Shown here: piece after piece, positions 7,851-15,345 of the stretch | Layout of the letters: each line of letters opens with the position of its first letter | Position numbering within the stretch: position 1 is the first letter of the stretch | DNA from: Paratractidigestivibacter faecalis | Lineage (GTDB): Bacteria > Actinomycetota > Coriobacteriia > Coriobacteriales > Atopobiaceae | Length of the DNA: 64,000 nt | Reading direction: 5' to 3' | Assembly (NCBI RefSeq): GCF_003416765.1 | Contig: NZ_QSNG01000001.1 | Span: 460,742 to 524,741, forward strand | Position numbers and translations under genes: made by a program | The notes under the pieces: model-generated | What the model saw: only the letters and a program-made list of their open reading frames with translations | What the model was told of the DNA's origin: nothing | Databases searched by the model: none

Positions 7851-7904
7851 CGGCAATGGCCTGCCCGCGGCACAAAAAAGCCACACGTGAGGGCGGCGTT
7901 TTGG

Positions 7905-7932
7905 TTGCAACGGGCGTCTGCTGTGATACACT
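7905..7932 (+). promoter_or_regulatory. Promoter of rpmB
   Basis: TTGCAA (7905-7910), a 16-base spacer and TACACT (7927-7932) form a plausible sigma-70-type promoter about 60 bases upstream of the rpmB start. Confidence 0.55.
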
Positions 7933-7991
7933 CATACAGCTTTTGGAAATTGCGGGCGCGATTTGCGCCGCGCCCCTGAGGAGGTCTAGTC

Positions 7992-8180
7992 ATGTCGAAG
8001 GTTTGTGAGTTCTGCGGTAAGCACGCGGTTGCTGGTCGTTCCATCAGCCACTCCCACCGCACCGTCGCCCGTACGTTCAAGCCCAACATTCAGCGTGTCA
8101 CCGTCGTCGTCGACGGCCACAAGAAGAAGGCCAACGTCTGCACCCGCTGCCTGAAGTCCGGCAAGATCGCCCGCAGCTAG
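7992..8180 (+). CDS. rpmB: 50S ribosomal protein L28, zinc-binding form
   Basis: 62 residues, the usual length of bacterial L28, a protein of the large ribosomal subunit. The sequence CEFCGKHAVAGRSISHSHR and the C-terminal KSGKIAR are diagnostic. Cys5, Cys8, Cys50 and Cys53 form two CxxC pairs, so this is the zinc-ribbon (C+) version, not the zinc-independent paralogue. RBS GAGGAGG lies about 8 bases upstream. It is a monocistronic unit with its own promoter and terminator. Confidence 0.97.
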   Translation: MSKVCEFCGKHAVAGRSISHSHRTVARTFKPNIQRVTVVVDGHKKKANVCTRCLKSGKIARS

Positions 8181-8206
8181 TACGTGCGCAAAATCAGTGC
8201 TTCTGC

Positions 8207-8236
8207 AAGGAGGTCGCTTCGGCGGCCTCCTTTTTT
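8207..8236 (+). terminator. Rho-independent terminator of rpmB
   Basis: AAGGAGGTCGC, a TTCG tetraloop, then GCGGCCTCCTT followed by a T-run: a compact GC-rich hairpin directly after rpmB. Confidence 0.92.
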
Positions 8237-8298: not shown

Positions 8299-8366
8299 CG
8301 TTCTCATCCCAAATCGACATTTGACCCCCTCCGAGGGGTAGCAAATGTCGATTCAGGATGAGAACG
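8299..8366. repeat. Long imperfect intergenic inverted repeat
   Basis: CGTTCTCATCC (8299-8309) pairs with GGATGAGAACG (8356-8366), and ATCGACATTTG (8313-8323) pairs with CAAATGTCGAT (8342-8352). Three-base bulges separate the two stems. The loop contains CCCCTC/GAGGGG. There is no T-run, so it is not an ordinary terminator. It resembles a repetitive palindromic element, but no second copy was seen in the window. Confidence 0.8.
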
Positions 8367-8373
8367 CTTGCGC

Positions 8374-8393
8374 GGCGAGAAGAGCTTCTCGCC
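8374..8393. repeat. Perfect palindromic dimer of the over-represented 9-mer
   Basis: GGCGAGAAG-AG-CTTCTCGCC is a 20-bp inverted repeat, perfect except for the two central bases. It is the best of three such dimers in the first 8.4 kb. Confidence 0.85.
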
Positions 8394-8411: not shown

Positions 8412-8424
8412 GACAATTATTGTC
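8412..8424. promoter_or_regulatory. Candidate operator, 13-bp palindrome
   Basis: GACAAT-T-ATTGTC is a perfect palindrome about 150 bases upstream of the SPFH-cluster start. Position and symmetry suggest a repressor site, but no regulator gene is adjacent and no clear -35/-10 pair was found here. Confidence 0.35.
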
Positions 8425-8571: not shown

Positions 8572-9945
8572 ATGTCCCTGTTCCACAGCGAGAACCCCAA
8601 GGAAGAGCAGCATTCGGGCATCCTCGGCGCGTTCTCTGTAGACAACATCAAGTGGGAGCCGGGTGACGAGGCGGGCGCCTCTCTCGTTGCCTTCCGCTAC
8701 CCGTACGAGGACTTTCCCAACGGGTCCTACCTTCACGTGGCCCAGTCTCAGGTGGCGGTTTTCACCAACAACATGGAGGCTGGCAGCTCCCTTGATGCCA
8801 CCGGAGCGGGGGACTCCCAGGTCAGCGTCTTCGTCGGACCGTGCAAGATCAAGCTGGACACCGGAGATAGCCGCTTTGCACCATTCCGCAACGTGACTCA
8901 TGCGCTAACTGGCGGCTCCTCGGCATTCCACTCGGTGGTTTACTTCATCAATACCAACTACATGAACGAGCTCAAGTGGGGCACCACCGATCCCATCATC
9001 GTCCAGGACCCAGAGGAGCAGGTCAACGTTCACGTGCGTGCCTATGGCCTCTTTGGCGTGCACATCGAGCAGAATGACCCGGGCCTCGCCCCCATCCAGG
9101 CGCGCAAGTTCCTGGTCAAGGTCGTTGGCACGCGTAGCCAGTACACTCGCGAGGAGCTCACCTCCTTCATGCGCGCCAAGATTCTCGAGTACGTGCCCGA
9201 CCTTCTGGCAAAGTCCATCATCGAGAGGGGCATCTCGGTCCTCAAGATCTCGGCGTATCTCAGCGAGTTCTCGTCTCTGCTTCAGGAGAGACTCTCTGCT
9301 CACTTTGACTCCTTCGGCCTTGCTCTGGACAACTTCTCGTTCAACAGCATCAAGCCCTTCGAGGATGACCTTGCCGCGCTCAATCAGGCAAAGATTGTTC
9401 GCCAGACGAGCATTCTCGAGGCTCAGGGCAACGCCGCCAAGATGGACATAGAGTCCGAGGCTCTTGCGAGGAAGCGTGCCCGCGAGGGGTTCACCTATCA
9501 GCAGGAGCGCGGCATGGACGTCATGCAGAGCGCCGCGTCCAACGAGGGCGGTGGTGCCTCGGGTCTCATGGGTGCCGGAATGGGTCTGGGCATGGGCGTC
9601 GGCGTTGGCGGTGCCTTTGGAGCGGGTTTTGCCAACCTGGCAAACCAAGCCGTCGAATCCATGGGGGCGGGGGCGACGCAACCCACACAGCCTGCTTCTG
9701 CCCAGGGTACCGCATGCCCTGCCTGTGGACATGCCAACCCCGCGGACGCCAAGTTCTGCCTGGAGTGTGGAACCAAGCTCGAGCGAGGCAAGGCCTGCCC
9801 TGCCTGCGGCCACGTCAATCCGCCCGAGGCAAAGTTCTGCCTGGAGTGCGGCGCCAGGCTGGGAGTTCCTGTCTGTCCCGACTGTGGTACCCAGCTGCCT
9901 GGGGGAACCAAGTTCTGCCCCAACTGCGGAAGAAAGATCCAGTAA
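8572..9945 (+). CDS. SPFH-domain (virion-core-like) protein with three C-terminal zinc ribbons
   Basis: 457 residues. The first ~300 residues resemble the SPFH/Band-7 'virion core protein' family (YdjI-like): WEPGDEAGASLVAFRYPYEDFPNGSYLHV near the N terminus and FDSFGLALDNFSFNSI later. A Gly/Met-rich hydrophobic stretch (about 325-365) is followed by three zinc ribbons, two of the form CPACG...FCLECG and one CPDCG...FCPNCG. Family members form membrane-associated oligomers, often under envelope stress. It heads a co-directional cluster of five genes and is followed closely (12 bases) by a membrane-protein gene. The RBS is GGGAGGAATG. The exact role is unknown. Confidence 0.82.
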   Translation: MSLFHSENPKEEQHSGILGAFSVDNIKWEPGDEAGASLVAFRYPYEDFPNGSYLHVAQSQVAVFTNNMEAGSSLDATGAGDSQVSVFVGPCKIKLDTGDSRFAPFRNVTHALTGGSSAFHSVVYFINTNYMNELKWGTTDPIIVQDPEEQVNVHVRAYGLFGVHIEQNDPGLAPIQARKFLVKVVGTRSQYTREELTSFMRAKILEYVPDLLAKSIIERGISVLKISAYLSEFSSLLQERLSAHFDSFGLALDNFSFNSIKPFEDDLAALNQAKIVRQTSILEAQGNAAKMDIESEALARKRAREGFTYQQERGMDVMQSAASNEGGGASGLMGAGMGLGMGVGVGGAFGAGFANLANQAVESMGAGATQPTQPASAQGTACPACGHANPADAKFCLECGTKLERGKACPACGHVNPPEAKFCLECGARLGVPVCPDCGTQLPGGTKFCPNCGRKIQ

Positions 9946-9957
9946 GGAGGGCGTGTC

Positions 9958-10662
9958 GTGAACGGAATGACTAAACGCGTCGTGGTGGGAGAGGCCGTTG
10001 CGCTCGTAGCCTGGCTCATCGTCATGCTGGCCTGCCAGAACGTCCTCATGAGCCCCTTTGTCTTCTATACGTCTCTGCTCTTTGGGCTTCTCGCCTTTGT
10101 GGTGTCTGCTGTCTCCATGGCGCTGGCAGACCGCCAGGGAGGGTCTCGCGCCATGACGGAGACCGGCTTTGGGCTCTCGACGGTGCTCTCCGTCGGGCTC
10201 TTTGCAGTGCTCCTTCTGGTCAACACGGTTTTCTGCTTTGCCTCCTTTGCCTGGATCTCCACTACGCTGCCGGTCGTCGTGAACGTGGCCATCTTGGCCG
10301 TCATGGTGATTGCGCGTGTGGGGCTTGACTCTCACGCAAAGACGGCCCAGGCAAACGTCAATTCGGCGGCGGCAAAGACGGGGGCTTTCGCTGGCTTCTC
10401 CGGTCGTCTGGGCGATCTTCTGGCGCAGGCGGACGAGCCCGAGGTCAGGGCTGCCCTTCTCGCCCTCAAGGAGGACGTCTCCATGAGCTCGAATGTCTCT
10501 CAGCCCCACACACTGGACTTGGAAGGGCAGTTTGCGTCGGAGCTCCGCGCCATAGAGGCCTCCATCCAGAAGAATGATCCGATTGAGGAGACGCTTGGCC
10601 TGGTGGCCCAAGCGAGGACTACGTGGCGCAAGCGCAATGCGGCGCTGACCTCGATCAAGTAG
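9958..10662 (+). CDS. Four-helix membrane protein with cytoplasmic helical tail
   Basis: 234 residues starting at GTG, with AAGGAGG at 9944-9950 seven bases upstream. Four hydrophobic segments occupy roughly residues 8-125 (LVAWLIVMLACQNVLM, FYTSLLFGLLAFVVSAVSM, VGLFAVLLLVNTVFCFASF, VVVNVAILAVMVIARV). The last ~110 residues are polar and probably helical and cytoplasmic. I do not recognise a family. It sits 12 bases after the SPFH gene and 51 bases before a zinc-ribbon gene, so it is probably the membrane anchor of this cluster. Confidence 0.7.
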   Translation: MNGMTKRVVVGEAVALVAWLIVMLACQNVLMSPFVFYTSLLFGLLAFVVSAVSMALADRQGGSRAMTETGFGLSTVLSVGLFAVLLLVNTVFCFASFAWISTTLPVVVNVAILAVMVIARVGLDSHAKTAQANVNSAAAKTGAFAGFSGRLGDLLAQADEPEVRAALLALKEDVSMSSNVSQPHTLDLEGQFASELRAIEASIQKNDPIEETLGLVAQARTTWRKRNAALTSIK

Positions 10663-10713
10663 GCGTCCGGGATACCCAAAGTGGCATCCCGGTTAGGTGA
10701 ACGGAGGCTTGTC

Positions 10714-11526
10714 TTGGAGGTATTCGGGCTCACGTGCGCTGGTTGCGGCAGCACCGACGTCGACTTCAACACGGAGACTAGGAAGGTCACCTGCAACCAG
10801 TGTGGCAAGGTGGAGTACTACTCCAGGGCGCAGCTGGGCGCTACGGGCAAGATTGTCATTGCCAAGGACAACGCCATCAAGTTCTTTGGGGAAGGCAACC
10901 TTTCGGGAGCGCGCGAGTTTGCCGTTGACGTGCTGAACGTCATGCAGGACAACGCTGCAGCCCTCTTCATCGTGGCGTATTGCGACGAATTCGTCGAGGG
11001 GCAGGCGGGCGCAATGGAAGGGTTCTTCCGCAGGACGGACCCCATGCCGCTCGAGTCAGACGAGGTGAAGGACCTCATGGCGCTCTTCGAGGACAAGCTG
11101 CCCAACCTGCGTGACTTTGAGGTCCAGATGGTGACGCTCGTGGTCAAGAACCTCCAGAGCCCTGATGACCGTGCGAGGCTCAGCGAGTTCATCGACCGTG
11201 TGTGTCCGTACTGCATCTTGCACTATGCGTCCGAGGACTTCATGACGCCTGAGCGCGAGGACTTCTATCGTGACGTCGCCGGCCACTGCGATGTGCCCAA
11301 GACCTGCCTGGCTCTTCTCAGGGGAATCCGCGAGATTCCAAGCTCTCCCTGGAAGGCGGGCTCTTTCGCCATGAGGGCCAGGGCGACGTACTTTCTTGAG
11401 CACTACGTCGAGCCGGTGGGAAGGGTCGTTTCGGCAATGAGGGACGGTCAGTTCAAGCCAAAGTTCCTGCAGGCATACGCTCAGGAGCACGAGAAGTACC
11501 TAGCTGCTATGTCGCAGTCGGCATAG
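10714..11526 (+). CDS. Zinc-ribbon protein of unknown function
   Basis: 270 residues from TTG 10714, chosen because GGAGG lies at 10703-10707 with six-base spacing; a GTG at 10681 in frame has no such site. The N terminus is a TFIIB-like zinc ribbon: CAGCG (about residues 7-11) and CNQCGKVEYYSR about 25 residues later. The rest is helical and acidic with no membrane segment; HCDVPK- and CPYC-type cysteines/histidines occur at 165-200. I know no assigned family. Shared zinc ribbons with the SPFH protein suggest a common partner or scaffold. Confidence 0.65.
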   Translation: MEVFGLTCAGCGSTDVDFNTETRKVTCNQCGKVEYYSRAQLGATGKIVIAKDNAIKFFGEGNLSGAREFAVDVLNVMQDNAAALFIVAYCDEFVEGQAGAMEGFFRRTDPMPLESDEVKDLMALFEDKLPNLRDFEVQMVTLVVKNLQSPDDRARLSEFIDRVCPYCILHYASEDFMTPEREDFYRDVAGHCDVPKTCLALLRGIREIPSSPWKAGSFAMRARATYFLEHYVEPVGRVVSAMRDGQFKPKFLQAYAQEHEKYLAAMSQSA

Positions 11527-11590
11527 TCCGCTTCCTTAGTTTCTTTCTTAATGTTTTGCAATTGGGACATACCCAGAAGGGACAGCAAGG

Positions 11591-13234
11591 ATGGGAACTG
11601 AAGTCATCAACCTTGGCGGAGTCGAGCGCGAGCTTGCCCGTCTTGGCAACAAGGTCGACGCCCTGGGCTCTCACGTCTCCAGCGTGGAGTCCCAGATTTC
11701 CGAGGTCAGGGATGACCTCGCTGCTCTACGCAATGACTTTTTGACCATGATGGAGGAGCAACGACGTGCCTCCGCCCTGGAGCAGGCCGCCACCGAGTTG
11801 GTTAGCGTCAGACAGGAGATGGAGAGGAAGTTCGGAAACTACGGCGTCGTGCGCAACACCATGGTCGGCATCCTGCAGGCCACCGATGCGGCACTGGTCA
11901 GGAAGGCCACCATCTCCACGGTCTCAGAAGAGCTCATGATCTCTACCCCGGACTATTGGCTGGCCCCGGTCCTCGTGGCGCTGGCGGCGTGGATCAACAA
12001 CAACCGAGACCTGGCCGAGCGCGCCATTACCGAGGCCGTGCGTCGCGACAACGAGCATTCCTCCCTGGCCATGGCACTAATCTGCAGAAGAAACCATCGT
12101 ACCGGCACGTGTTACGAGTGGCTTGCTCGGTACTTCTCGACGCAGAATGCTGCCAAGATAGACATGGACTCCATGGTCTACATCGACGCCTACGTCAACG
12201 GAATCTTTGGACCAGACGAGAAGCACCTCTGCGACGACTACATGACTCGCTGGATCGCTCAGATCCAGAGCCAGACCCCACAGTTTGAGGAGAAGCAGTC
12301 GCAGTCCTGGGCTGAGTACTTCCGGACCTACGAGACCGACGGCGGCTCCAAGTACCCCGCGCTCAAGGCCGTGGTCAAGGAGTTTGGCTACATAGACAAG
12401 TACTTGGGCAAAATCAATGCCATCGAGAAGATCTCGACGGGCTTCGAGGGCATCAGGAATGCTGAGATCGACTCCCGCACGCTGGCCGAGCAGGTGGACA
12501 GTCACCTTATGGAGCTCGTCAACTCCGACGATCCCAAGGAACGCCAGCTGCGGGAGGAGGAAGAGTACCTCCTTGCGGTCAAGGCTTGCGAGGGTGACGT
12601 GACACAGGCTCGTCGCATGGTCAATCAGCGCAGGCAGGAGAAGCGTGAGCAGACCGTGAGCATCGTCGAGCAGATGACGCGCGTCGCGAGGGATAAGAGC
12701 CGCGGCGTCGATCACCACAAGAAGACTGCGTTGCGCTTCCTGGGCGGATACATCAACGATGGCTTTGCGAGGTATCGCGATGAGGAGACGCCTGACTTCC
12801 CGCAGGAGGTCACGCTCGAGCTTGACGGCTGGAGCGGACGGGCCACGACGGGGGATGAGGCTGCTGCTCTGAAGAGCGACTATGCCACCTTCATGGAGGG
12901 ACAGAAGGCCGCGGAGCTTGCCGAGCTCCAAAGGAAGACTGAGCCCAAGAACCTCAAGGTCGCGGCCATGGTCTGCGCGGTCGCGGGCATTGTGTTCTTC
13001 TTCATTAATGCGACGCTGGGCATCGCTCTGCTCCTGGCGGCGGCCGTCTGCTTTGTGACCCTGAAGGGCAAGGAGAAGGCTCGCGTGAAGGGCGCTGAGG
13101 AGATTGCCGCAAAGTATGGGGCCAAGACAGAGGATGGCGCCAGGGAGATTGACCTTGCGCTGGGACAGTGGAAGGCTGCCAAGGCCGAGGCGAGCGAGCG
13201 CGGTTCCCTGCTCAAGATGGAGAAGGTCGCCTAA
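11591..13234 (+). CDS. Coiled-coil protein with C-terminal membrane hairpin
   Basis: 547 residues. Residues ~5-85 have heptad-like hydrophobic spacing (VERELARLGNKVDALGSHV, then VESQISEVRDDLAAL), indicating a coiled coil. The middle is helical and charged. Two adjacent hydrophobic segments at about 456-492 (VAAMVCAVAGIVFFFI and GIALLLAAAVCFVTL) form a membrane hairpin, followed by a charged tail. It belongs to the SPFH cluster by direction and spacing (64 bases). The design, long cytoplasmic coiled coil plus membrane hairpin, fits a structural or membrane-remodelling partner. No named family was recognised. Confidence 0.7.
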   Translation: MGTEVINLGGVERELARLGNKVDALGSHVSSVESQISEVRDDLAALRNDFLTMMEEQRRASALEQAATELVSVRQEMERKFGNYGVVRNTMVGILQATDAALVRKATISTVSEELMISTPDYWLAPVLVALAAWINNNRDLAERAITEAVRRDNEHSSLAMALICRRNHRTGTCYEWLARYFSTQNAAKIDMDSMVYIDAYVNGIFGPDEKHLCDDYMTRWIAQIQSQTPQFEEKQSQSWAEYFRTYETDGGSKYPALKAVVKEFGYIDKYLGKINAIEKISTGFEGIRNAEIDSRTLAEQVDSHLMELVNSDDPKERQLREEEEYLLAVKACEGDVTQARRMVNQRRQEKREQTVSIVEQMTRVARDKSRGVDHHKKTALRFLGGYINDGFARYRDEETPDFPQEVTLELDGWSGRATTGDEAAALKSDYATFMEGQKAAELAELQRKTEPKNLKVAAMVCAVAGIVFFFINATLGIALLLAAAVCFVTLKGKEKARVKGAEEIAAKYGAKTEDGAREIDLALGQWKAAKAEASERGSLLKMEKVA

Positions 13235-13273
13235 TTGACAATCGCCGCATGCCGGCGAGGAATGGAGCGTGAC

Positions 13274-13468
13274 ATGTCTGACAACATGAACGTGACGGAT
13301 TCCAGCCCCTCCCTGACCGAGGGCATGGACGCCCTTGCGGAGCTCAATGACCTCTTCTCTGAGGATGACGAGAAGATCAAGGAGTCCGAGGCCAACGTCT
13401 TGAGCCAGAACCTCACGGGCTTTGCGAGCTGCTTTCCCGACTGGGACCTGCATCCGCCAGTAGCATAG
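13274..13468 (+). CDS. Small acidic protein at the end of the SPFH cluster, possibly truncated
   Basis: 64 residues from ATG 13274, with GGAG at 13264-13267; an upstream TTG start has no ribosome-binding site. The sequence MSDNMNVTDSSPSLTEGMDALAELNDLFSEDDEK begins strongly acidic, then becomes NLTGFASCFPDWDLHPPVA at the end. The abrupt stop, and coding-like sequence in another frame about 85 bases later, suggest it may once have been longer. Function unknown. Confidence 0.5.
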   Translation: MSDNMNVTDSSPSLTEGMDALAELNDLFSEDDEKIKESEANVLSQNLTGFASCFPDWDLHPPVA

Positions 13469-13756: not shown

Positions 13757-15195
13757 GGGGGTGCGGACAATTTCTTAGACACTACGGAGAGAGTACCCCA
13801 GGTCCCTGCGGTACTGCTCCGGGCTCCTCCACCCCAGGCTCCGCTTGATCCTGCCCGAGTTGTAGTAGGCGAGGTAGCCCGCCAGGCGCCGCCGGAACTC
13901 CTCGAAGCCCACCCCGGACCAGTCCCTGCCGTGGTAGAACTCCTGCTTGAGCCGGCCGAAGAAGCCCTCGGCCGCGGCGTTGTCGGGGCTGCGGCCCTTC
14001 CTCGACATGCTGCGCACCAGGCCGTGGCGCTCGCATATCGCCGCCCAGCCCGGCCACCTGTAGTGGCAGCCGCGGTCGGTGTGGACCACGGGCCGCTCGC
14101 CGGCCGCGAGCGTCGAGGCCGCCGCCTCCAGCATCGAGTCGGCCATGCGGGCGTCGGGGGACTCCGACAGGGTCCACGCCACGACCGCCCCGTCGAAGCA
14201 GTCGACCACCGGCGACAGCCAGCAGCGCCCCGACCCTATCGTGAACATGGTGACGTCGGTGACCCACAGCTCGTTGGGGCGCGAGGCGGAGAAGTCGTGG
14301 GTGCCGTCGGGGCGCAGCGGCAGGTTGGGAGGGGCCTCGGAGACCTCGCCGGCATAGCTGCTCCAGCGCCTGCGGCGCCTCAGGTAGCGCACCTCGAGCC
14401 CCTCCTCGCGCATGACGCGCCTCACGACCTTCTCGGAGACCGCCAGGGGCTCGTCGGGGTCCAGGCGCAGCCTCGCCCATATCGTGCGGTAGCCCCAGGC
14501 CCCGCCCCCGGCCTCGAACAGGGCGCGCACCCGCGCCCTCAGGGCGGCCAGGCGGTCGGGGGCGCCCCTGCGGGCGCGGTGGTAGTAGTAGGTGCTGCGC
14601 GCCACGCCGGCCGCGCGCAGGGCGTCCTCCAGGCCGAACCCGGGCCTAAGGGCGTCGGCGACCAGCGCCCTCTCCGCCGCCGTCAGCGAGTCCGGGCCCC
14701 GCCCCGGGCCGCCTCCTTTTAGGACGTCCAACACCGCCTCGGCCCTGGCGAGCTCCAGCCTCAGGGCCCGGTTCTCGGCCCTGAGGGCCTCCAGGTCCCC
14801 GGGGTCGGCCGGCGGCGGCACGCGCGGGGCGCCCCGTCCGTTCGCGAGCGACACCTCGCCCTCCCTCCCCGCGGCGCGGGCCCAGCCGCGCACGGTCTCC
14901 GGGTGGCAGCCGATCGACGCGGCGACCTCGGCGGGGTCCTCCCCGGCGAGCGCCCTGCGCGCGGCGTCGGCCCTCTGGGCAAGAGTATAGGGGGCGTGCC
15001 AGCCGACGCCCAGGTCGCCGGACGCCCAGCGCCTGATCGACTCGGCGGAGGCGAGCCCCGACTCCCTGGCGAACCTGTGGGCCGGCCGGCCGGACTCGCG
15101 CCAGAGCCCCAGGATGGCGTCCCTCTCGTCGCTCGAGTACATTGCGGGCTCCAATCCGGACGCCTGTCGGCGTCCAACTTTTCGTCCGCACCCCC
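13757..15195 (-). mobile_element. IS3-family insertion sequence with 3-bp target duplication
   Basis: Terminal inverted repeats GGGGGTGCGGAC (13757-13768) and GTCCGCACCCCC (15184-15195) bound a 1,439-bp element; weaker similarity continues inward (TT.GAC). The trinucleotide CAC flanks both ends (13754-13756 and 15196-15198), a 3-bp duplication as expected for the IS3 family. One transposase gene fills the element on the minus strand. The ends look intact, so the copy may be recent or active. Confidence 0.9.
13775..15142 (-). CDS. IS3-family transposase, single continuous ORF
   Basis: 455 residues from ATG 15142 (GGAG at 15149-15152 on the minus strand). The N-terminal part contains helix-turn-helix sequence (AEVAASIGCHPETVRGWARA) and a leucine-rich coiled region (LEALRAENRALRLELARAEAV) as in OrfA. 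The C-terminal part is the DDE integrase domain: VTDVTMF, HTDRGCHYRW and DNAAAEGFFGRLKQEF carry the D, D and E residues. Most IS3 elements split these as OrfA/OrfB joined by a programmed frameshift; here they are one frame. It catalyses transposition of the surrounding element. Confidence 0.93.
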   Translation of the reverse strand: MYSSDERDAILGLWRESGRPAHRFARESGLASAESIRRWASGDLGVGWHAPYTLAQRADAARRALAGEDPAEVAASIGCHPETVRGWARAAGREGEVSLANGRGAPRVPPPADPGDLEALRAENRALRLELARAEAVLDVLKGGGPGRGPDSLTAAERALVADALRPGFGLEDALRAAGVARSTYYYHRARRGAPDRLAALRARVRALFEAGGGAWGYRTIWARLRLDPDEPLAVSEKVVRRVMREEGLEVRYLRRRRRWSSYAGEVSEAPPNLPLRPDGTHDFSASRPNELWVTDVTMFTIGSGRCWLSPVVDCFDGAVVAWTLSESPDARMADSMLEAAASTLAAGERPVVHTDRGCHYRWPGWAAICERHGLVRSMSRKGRSPDNAAAEGFFGRLKQEFYHGRDWSGVGFEEFRRRLAGYLAYYNSGRIKRSLGWRSPEQYRRDLGYSLRSV

Positions 15196-15198
15196 CAC

Positions 15199-15345
15199 CT
15201 TCCGCTGGAACGCCATTCTGAGCGCCGACCCAAAAGGGCATCTAGTCGCTCGCTTATTGCTTCCACTGGAACGGCAAAGTGAGCGAATGGCAGAGGTTAT
15301 ATCTGACGCGCGGAATCGCCTTCCAGCGGGAGCCCCATTTGAGCA
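15199..15345. repeat. Three imperfect 26-bp repeats at ~60-bp period
   Basis: CTTCCGCTGGAACGCCATTC (15199 onward), CTTCCACTGGAACGGCAAAG (15260 onward) and CTTCCAGCGGGAGCCCCATT (15320 onward), each followed by a TGAGC-like end. They begin directly at the IS3 target site. Spaced multiple repeats of this size are seen at the ends of IS21-type elements, so this may be the surviving terminus of an older element into which the IS3 copy jumped. That origin is inference; no istA/istB sequence is present. Confidence 0.6.

Follow-up and report, generated by a model that had tools for sequence, protein, structure and literature searches.

A five-gene SPFH operon of Paratractidigestivibacter faecalis combines a widespread SPFH module with a candidate receptor and tail-ligand pair

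SPFH proteins are common in bacteria, and to our knowledge their cargo and triggers are mostly not established. YdjI, encoded by the pspA-ydjGHI operon of Bacillus subtilis, is a soluble member of the SPFH proteins that carries a zinc finger at its C-terminus; its placement at the membrane depends on the membrane proteins YdjG and YdjH, and it is itself required for the formation of PspA foci (PMC8581546, PMC11237479). YdjG combines two zinc ribbons, a YpeB/NTF2-like domain and a transmembrane (TM) segment (PMC11237479). Here we describe a five-gene operon in the window (the whole stretch of 64,000 nucleotides that was analysed) in which an SPFH gene is likewise encoded with membrane and zinc-ribbon partners. 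As the original prediction had it, the five genes are consecutive and co-directional, and each open reading frame (ORF) was verified at the coordinates given below.

Genes 1 to 3 and related SPFH modules

Gene 1 (8572..9945, + strand) encodes a 457-aa SPFH/Band_7_1 protein that matched PF13421 with an E value of 1.4e-25 in a profile search. The three zinc ribbons predicted for it were recovered at its C-terminus (residues ~380-455) as three stretches matched by DZR and Zn_Ribbon_1. Hydropathy revealed no TM-like hydrophobic segment, and hence no membrane anchor of its own; the membrane hairpin or transmembrane helix of the flotillins FloA and FloT is absent. Gene 1 therefore has the architecture of YdjI, with PF13421, a C-terminal zinc ribbon and no anchor. 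Gene 2 (9958..10662, + strand, 234 aa) was expected to be a four-helix membrane protein, in agreement with its four hydrophobic segments in the hydropathy profile (4-TM); its C-terminal part is helical. It is the fastest-evolving of the five genes, with 22-47% identity among cassettes. Gene 3 (10681..11526, + strand, 281 aa) encodes a soluble protein with an N-terminal zinc ribbon followed by a TPR-like helical repeat, both seen in its AF2 model (pLDDT 84). Cys19, Cys22, Cys38 and Cys41 of this supposedly TFIIB-like protein are invariant in the alignment, but the likeness of its ribbon to TFIIB/S27e is weak (E 0.04 and 0.01, under the cut-off). TPR proteins were among the best weak matches in structure searches with gene 3.

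Beyond the shared SPFH protein, the operon departs from pspA-ydjGHI. Gene 3 has one ribbon, an all-helical repeat and no TM segment, unlike YdjG, and the operon has an additional coiled-coil gene and a gene for a small protein with a conserved tail. Genes 1 to 5 gave no match to the PspA/IM30 domain and none to the TPM domain (YdjH type) at E <= 1, and PspA/IM30 (PF04012) was over the cut-off in none of the eight cassette-bearing genomes tested, on which ground we rejected a dependence of the cassette on PspA. Because PspA over the cut-off, TPM and a YdjG-like domain were all lacking, the operon is not a pspA-ydjGHI system, and only the idea of anchoring is carried over from YdjI, by analogy.

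SPFH genes of the PF13421 family were present in 60 of 150 genomes sampled from the order and in 19 of 149 in a second sample, drawn from the phylum of a metagenome-assembled genome (MAG) labelled Lachnospiraceae; the 2.1-Mb assembly of the window genome has one. A gene-2-like 4-TM gene follows the PF13421 gene in L046, L118, L122, L141, L142 and L080. In the first of these, the Butyrivibrio plasmid pNP21, the 4-TM gene lies directly after the SPFH gene and aligned with gene 2 at an hhalign E of 4e-8; L118, which comes from a genome of the same family as the window, has the order SPFH, 4-TM and two zinc-ribbon proteins, with genes 4 and 5 absent. Zinc-ribbon proteins encoded beside SPFH genes elsewhere resemble gene 3 in architecture, but their profile matches to it were weak (hhalign probability 33-71%). 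Genes 1 to 3 correspond in type and order to generic SPFH (Band_7_1)-4-TM-zinc-ribbon modules of Coriobacteriales, Bacillota and Bacteroides, which are without the coiled-coil/TM-hairpin gene and the tail gene of the window operon. These results bear on the claim that the last four genes belong to no nameable family. Apart from weak generic matches it held in Pfam, NCBIfam, PHROGs and PADLOC, where genes 2, 4 and 5 had no credible match and gene 3 had zinc-ribbon matches under the threshold. Yet gene-2-like and zinc-ribbon proteins usually partner such an SPFH gene elsewhere, so that only genes 4 and 5 are really unassigned. The operon is a composite of two modules, the widespread SPFH kind (genes 1 to 3, module A) and genes 4 and 5 (module B).

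Two details of the related loci were also recorded. The 4-TM gene of pNP21 seems to be broken by a tandem duplication of ~90 bp (~7883-8212), the annotated CDS beginning within the second duplicate copy. At L140 (5030-5779), a 4-TM protein beside the SPFH gene gave a weak match to PF17555 TssN (E 9e-5, under the cut-off).

Genes 4 and 5 and a cousin cassette with an AAA+ ATPase

Gene 4 (11591..13234, + strand, 547 aa) had been described as a long coiled-coil protein with a membrane hairpin, and both features were found. Its AF2 model (mean pLDDT 83; all AF2 models are of single chains) shows a long N-terminal coiled coil of ~90 residues and a middle of TPR-like helix pairs (~100-400), then a beta hairpin and the membrane hairpin, with a long helix at the C-terminus; hydropathy gave a single hydrophobic hairpin at residues 453-494. 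Residues 84-207 form a conserved region of the protein. Searches of the PDB with the models of genes 3 and 4 returned no match at E <= 0.001 with Foldseek and VIA Z-scores of 7 to about 10, and Z-scores of 7-10 are the usual level for helical repeats. Since the matches of both genes are common helical repeats, 'TPR-like' is used here as a description and not as a family, and peptide binding by a TPR-like groove is a hypothesis.

Gene 5 (13274..13468, + strand) encodes a 64-aa protein with a net charge of -12, in line with the small acidic protein that had been predicted. Its start is more likely the ATG at 13274, preceded by GGAG at 13265-13268, than the TTG at 13235. The protein ends in GFASCFPDWDLHPPV, and an alignment of seven sequences gave the tail consensus LxQNLxGFASCFPDWDLHPPV, in which P55, W57, D58, L59 and P61 belong to the stretch P-x-W-D-L-x-P. 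This motif occurs once in the window genome, likewise once in each cassette genome, and was found in none of the viral contigs, so that a general tag was rejected. A literature search on the motif found no paper. Genes 4 and 5 are an undescribed pair, and they make up the truly unassigned part of the operon.

The Streptococcus satellite phage Javan368 carries a gene 4 homologue (E 2e-54). Using the Javan368 protein as the query, we retrieved further homologues from a Fusobacterium record, a Comamonas plasmid and two Komagataeibacter plasmids, and searches by alignment brought in two more loci of the same type, on an IMG/VR contig and in G704. Gene 4 is 24-29% identical to these homologues over its full length, and the relationship across types was recovered at E <= 4e-87 with an HMM built from SPFH-type members only. 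In this cousin cassette, as in the window, the gene 4 homologue is followed by a small tail protein, whereas genes 1 to 3 are replaced by a Cdc48/FtsH-type AAA+ ATPase of ~520 aa (PF00004, E 7e-29) and two further proteins, one of 150-190 aa and one of ~160 aa. It is the last cargo of Javan368 and also occurs on plasmids and in chromosomes of other phyla; we sought a published name for it and found none. No homology was found between gene 3 and the helical 150-190-aa protein. The TPR of KLC2 with a tryptophan-acidic peptide (3zfw) was considered as a parallel for gene 3, an attractive one in view of the PDWDL in the tail, and rejected: the match was not significant (E 0.075), and the AAA-type cassette is without gene 3.

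Across both types, the tail gene lies immediately after gene 4 at 16 of 16 loci. In Javan368 (L026) it is an unannotated small ORF (~11412-11585) ending in GLPSWDIVPPQLLVRRKRQK, with one annotated CDS before it (9674-11395) and another after it (at 11585). The tails of both types have in common an A, a P, a W and a D/N-L/I step, giving the core P-x-W-D/N-L/I, although those of the AAA type terminate in RRK or similar, unlike gene 5. When the SPFH-type tail HMM was run against 9182 ORFs, its best other matches were AAA-type tails, one with E 8e-5 and three with E 0.1-0.2. Judged by sequence, homology of the tails across types is weakly suggested, and the suggestion leans on their position.

Distribution, conservation and flanks of the cassette

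Scanning of genome contigs with gene 4 yielded six loci, four of them in Collinsella, one in an uncultured Coriobacteriaceae MAG and one in the MAG labelled Lachnospiraceae, a label that could be a binning error. Two more genera of the window's family, Atopobiaceae, also bear gene 4. Wherever the locus is complete the five genes stand in identical order, and they are thus conserved together in several genera. Identity to the window is 35-67% for genes 3 and 4 and 75-79% for gene 1 in most of the cassette-bearing relatives from the contig scan. Codon position 3 is more divergent than positions 1 and 2 in all five genes, and all five are therefore under purifying selection. Since other genomes have the same genes in the same arrangement and position 3 is the most variable throughout, the cassette is more than a chance association. 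It is rare and patchily spread: 3 of 60 relatives have gene 4 (its own genome, with one copy, included), 4 of 150 relatives have the tail motif, and among 396 genomes of the phylum 2 matched the gene 3 profile at full strength. A plasmid search with gene 3 gave nothing useful, and neither did a search of plasmids and E. coli genomes for closely related DNA.

The flanks of the operon differ between genera and MAG lineages while its order stays the same. On the left of the window operon lies rpmB with a terminator-like hairpin, and the mobile DNA noted at the right end is an IS-type transposase ORF with HTH_21/rve domains (13775-15241, minus strand), ~300 bp past gene 5. The 13-bp palindrome reported upstream, GACAATTATTGTC (8412..8424, 147 bp upstream of gene 1), is exact and has one copy in the whole genome; it was missing upstream of those relatives' cassettes that were read. 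As the sequence is restricted to this genome, a conserved operator was ruled out, and the palindrome is at most a local one. The interval between rpmB and the cassette also contains a long inverted repeat (8300-8385), AATCGACATTTG ... CAAATGTCGATT, separate from the palindrome. In Collinsella the cassette lies left of an antitoxin/PIN-like pair, and one strain that has this pair without an adjoining cassette carries purM/purN-like genes in that place. Integration at a tRNA site was considered for the Collinsella cassette and dismissed, no tRNA gene being detected there.

A proposed membrane-surface complex and competing explanations

We propose that the products of all five genes assemble at the membrane surface into a single complex with two modules. 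In module A, the 4-TM protein would tether the SPFH scaffold to the membrane, much as YdjG and YdjH hold YdjI in B. subtilis, with the zinc-ribbon/TPR-like protein as a possible adaptor. In module B, gene 4 would be a membrane-anchored coiled-coil/TPR-like receptor. Gene 5 would be free to diffuse and is probably disordered, and its fixed P-x-W-D-L-x-P tail would dock on that receptor. Only the tail core and gene 4 recur in both cassette types, which makes gene 4 the simplest candidate for the partner of the tail. Bound or released upon membrane disturbance, the tail protein could act as a ligand or switch that alters the assembly state of the scaffold. The constant gene order across distinct genera supports the conserved grouping behind the earlier suggestion of an SPFH complex with membrane partners; the complex itself we infer. 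We regard the case for such a scaffold complex, with the tail as ligand or switch for gene 4, as evenly balanced. Each module is also seen without the other, module A alone at L118 and similar loci and module B alone at the AAA-type loci, and the SPFH scaffold and the AAA+ ATPase may be alternative assembly or remodelling engines for one receptor-tail pair. That genes 4 and 5 form an unrecognised bacterial receptor and tail-ligand pair, driven interchangeably by an SPFH scaffold or, on mobile elements, by an AAA+ ATPase, is offered tentatively, at somewhat under an even chance.

The operon might instead serve in anti-phage defence, with SPFH or AAA+ sensing a phage-induced membrane change, gene 4 permeabilising the membrane and the tail acting as inhibitor or trigger. 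Phage-resistance genes are frequent on phage satellites (PMC13376191), and the place of the AAA-type cousin as the last cargo of a satellite phage and on plasmids speaks for defence or another benefit to mobile elements; the patchy distribution, the differing flanks and the exchange of cassette for purMN beside the antitoxin/PIN-like pair of Collinsella point the same way. However, genes 1 to 5 had no credible full-length match in PADLOC, only weak coiled-coil matches, the AAA of the cousin matches IetA through the AAA domain only, and the SPFH-type cassette was found in no phage or viral contig searched. SPFH genes of this family are common in the order (60 of 150 genomes), which is what a general stress function would predict, and the wide use of SPFH modules speaks for a stress role. 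We consider defence possible but lean against it.

The other two explanations are weaker still. A rearranged pspA-ydjGHI (phage-shock) operon, with genes 1 to 3 standing for YdjI, YdjH and YdjG and gene 4 replacing PspA as the coiled-coil membrane effector, would account for the YdjI architecture of gene 1 and for its zinc-ribbon and membrane partners. It is unlikely, since membership already fails on the missing PspA, TPM and YdjG-like domains, and gene 3, with its single ribbon, TPR-like body and no TM, does not resemble the two-ribbon, NTF2-like, membrane-spanning YdjG. It is also conceivable that the widespread SPFH module and the pair of genes 4 and 5 are unrelated, ordinary neighbours that are co-transcribed with no joint function, as the existence of either module alone would allow; yet the order is kept across distinct genera at protein identities down to 22-38%, with gaps of 6-66 bp and differing flanks, and we think this very improbable. 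Returning to the proposed receptor and tail protein, the occurrence of the same two extra genes with an SPFH scaffold and with an AAA+ ATPase provides two backgrounds in which to study the work of the pair, and the fixed tail, being short and open to mutation, offers a simple handle for finding its partner. If defence or envelope surveillance proves true, the cassette would be a new type with a small-protein switch.

The AAA+ ATPase of the cousin cassette may be of the Ycf46 kind, to judge by its N-terminal part and by the DUF1257/DUF2997 genes that adjoin its relatives. The neighbours of other AAA relatives were DUF1257/DUF2997 modules and others, and the tail pair was not found among them. 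Plasmids of Rhodococcus, Geminocystis and Bacillus licheniformis (L152, L154 and L156) carry AAA+ relatives with DUF1257 and/or DUF2997 genes, and another relative is present on hundreds of enterobacterial conjugative plasmids. On pTRESU01 of Treponema succinifaciens (L153), an AAA+ relative lies directly 5' of a gene for phage baseplate assembly protein V, which suggests a contractile injection cluster.
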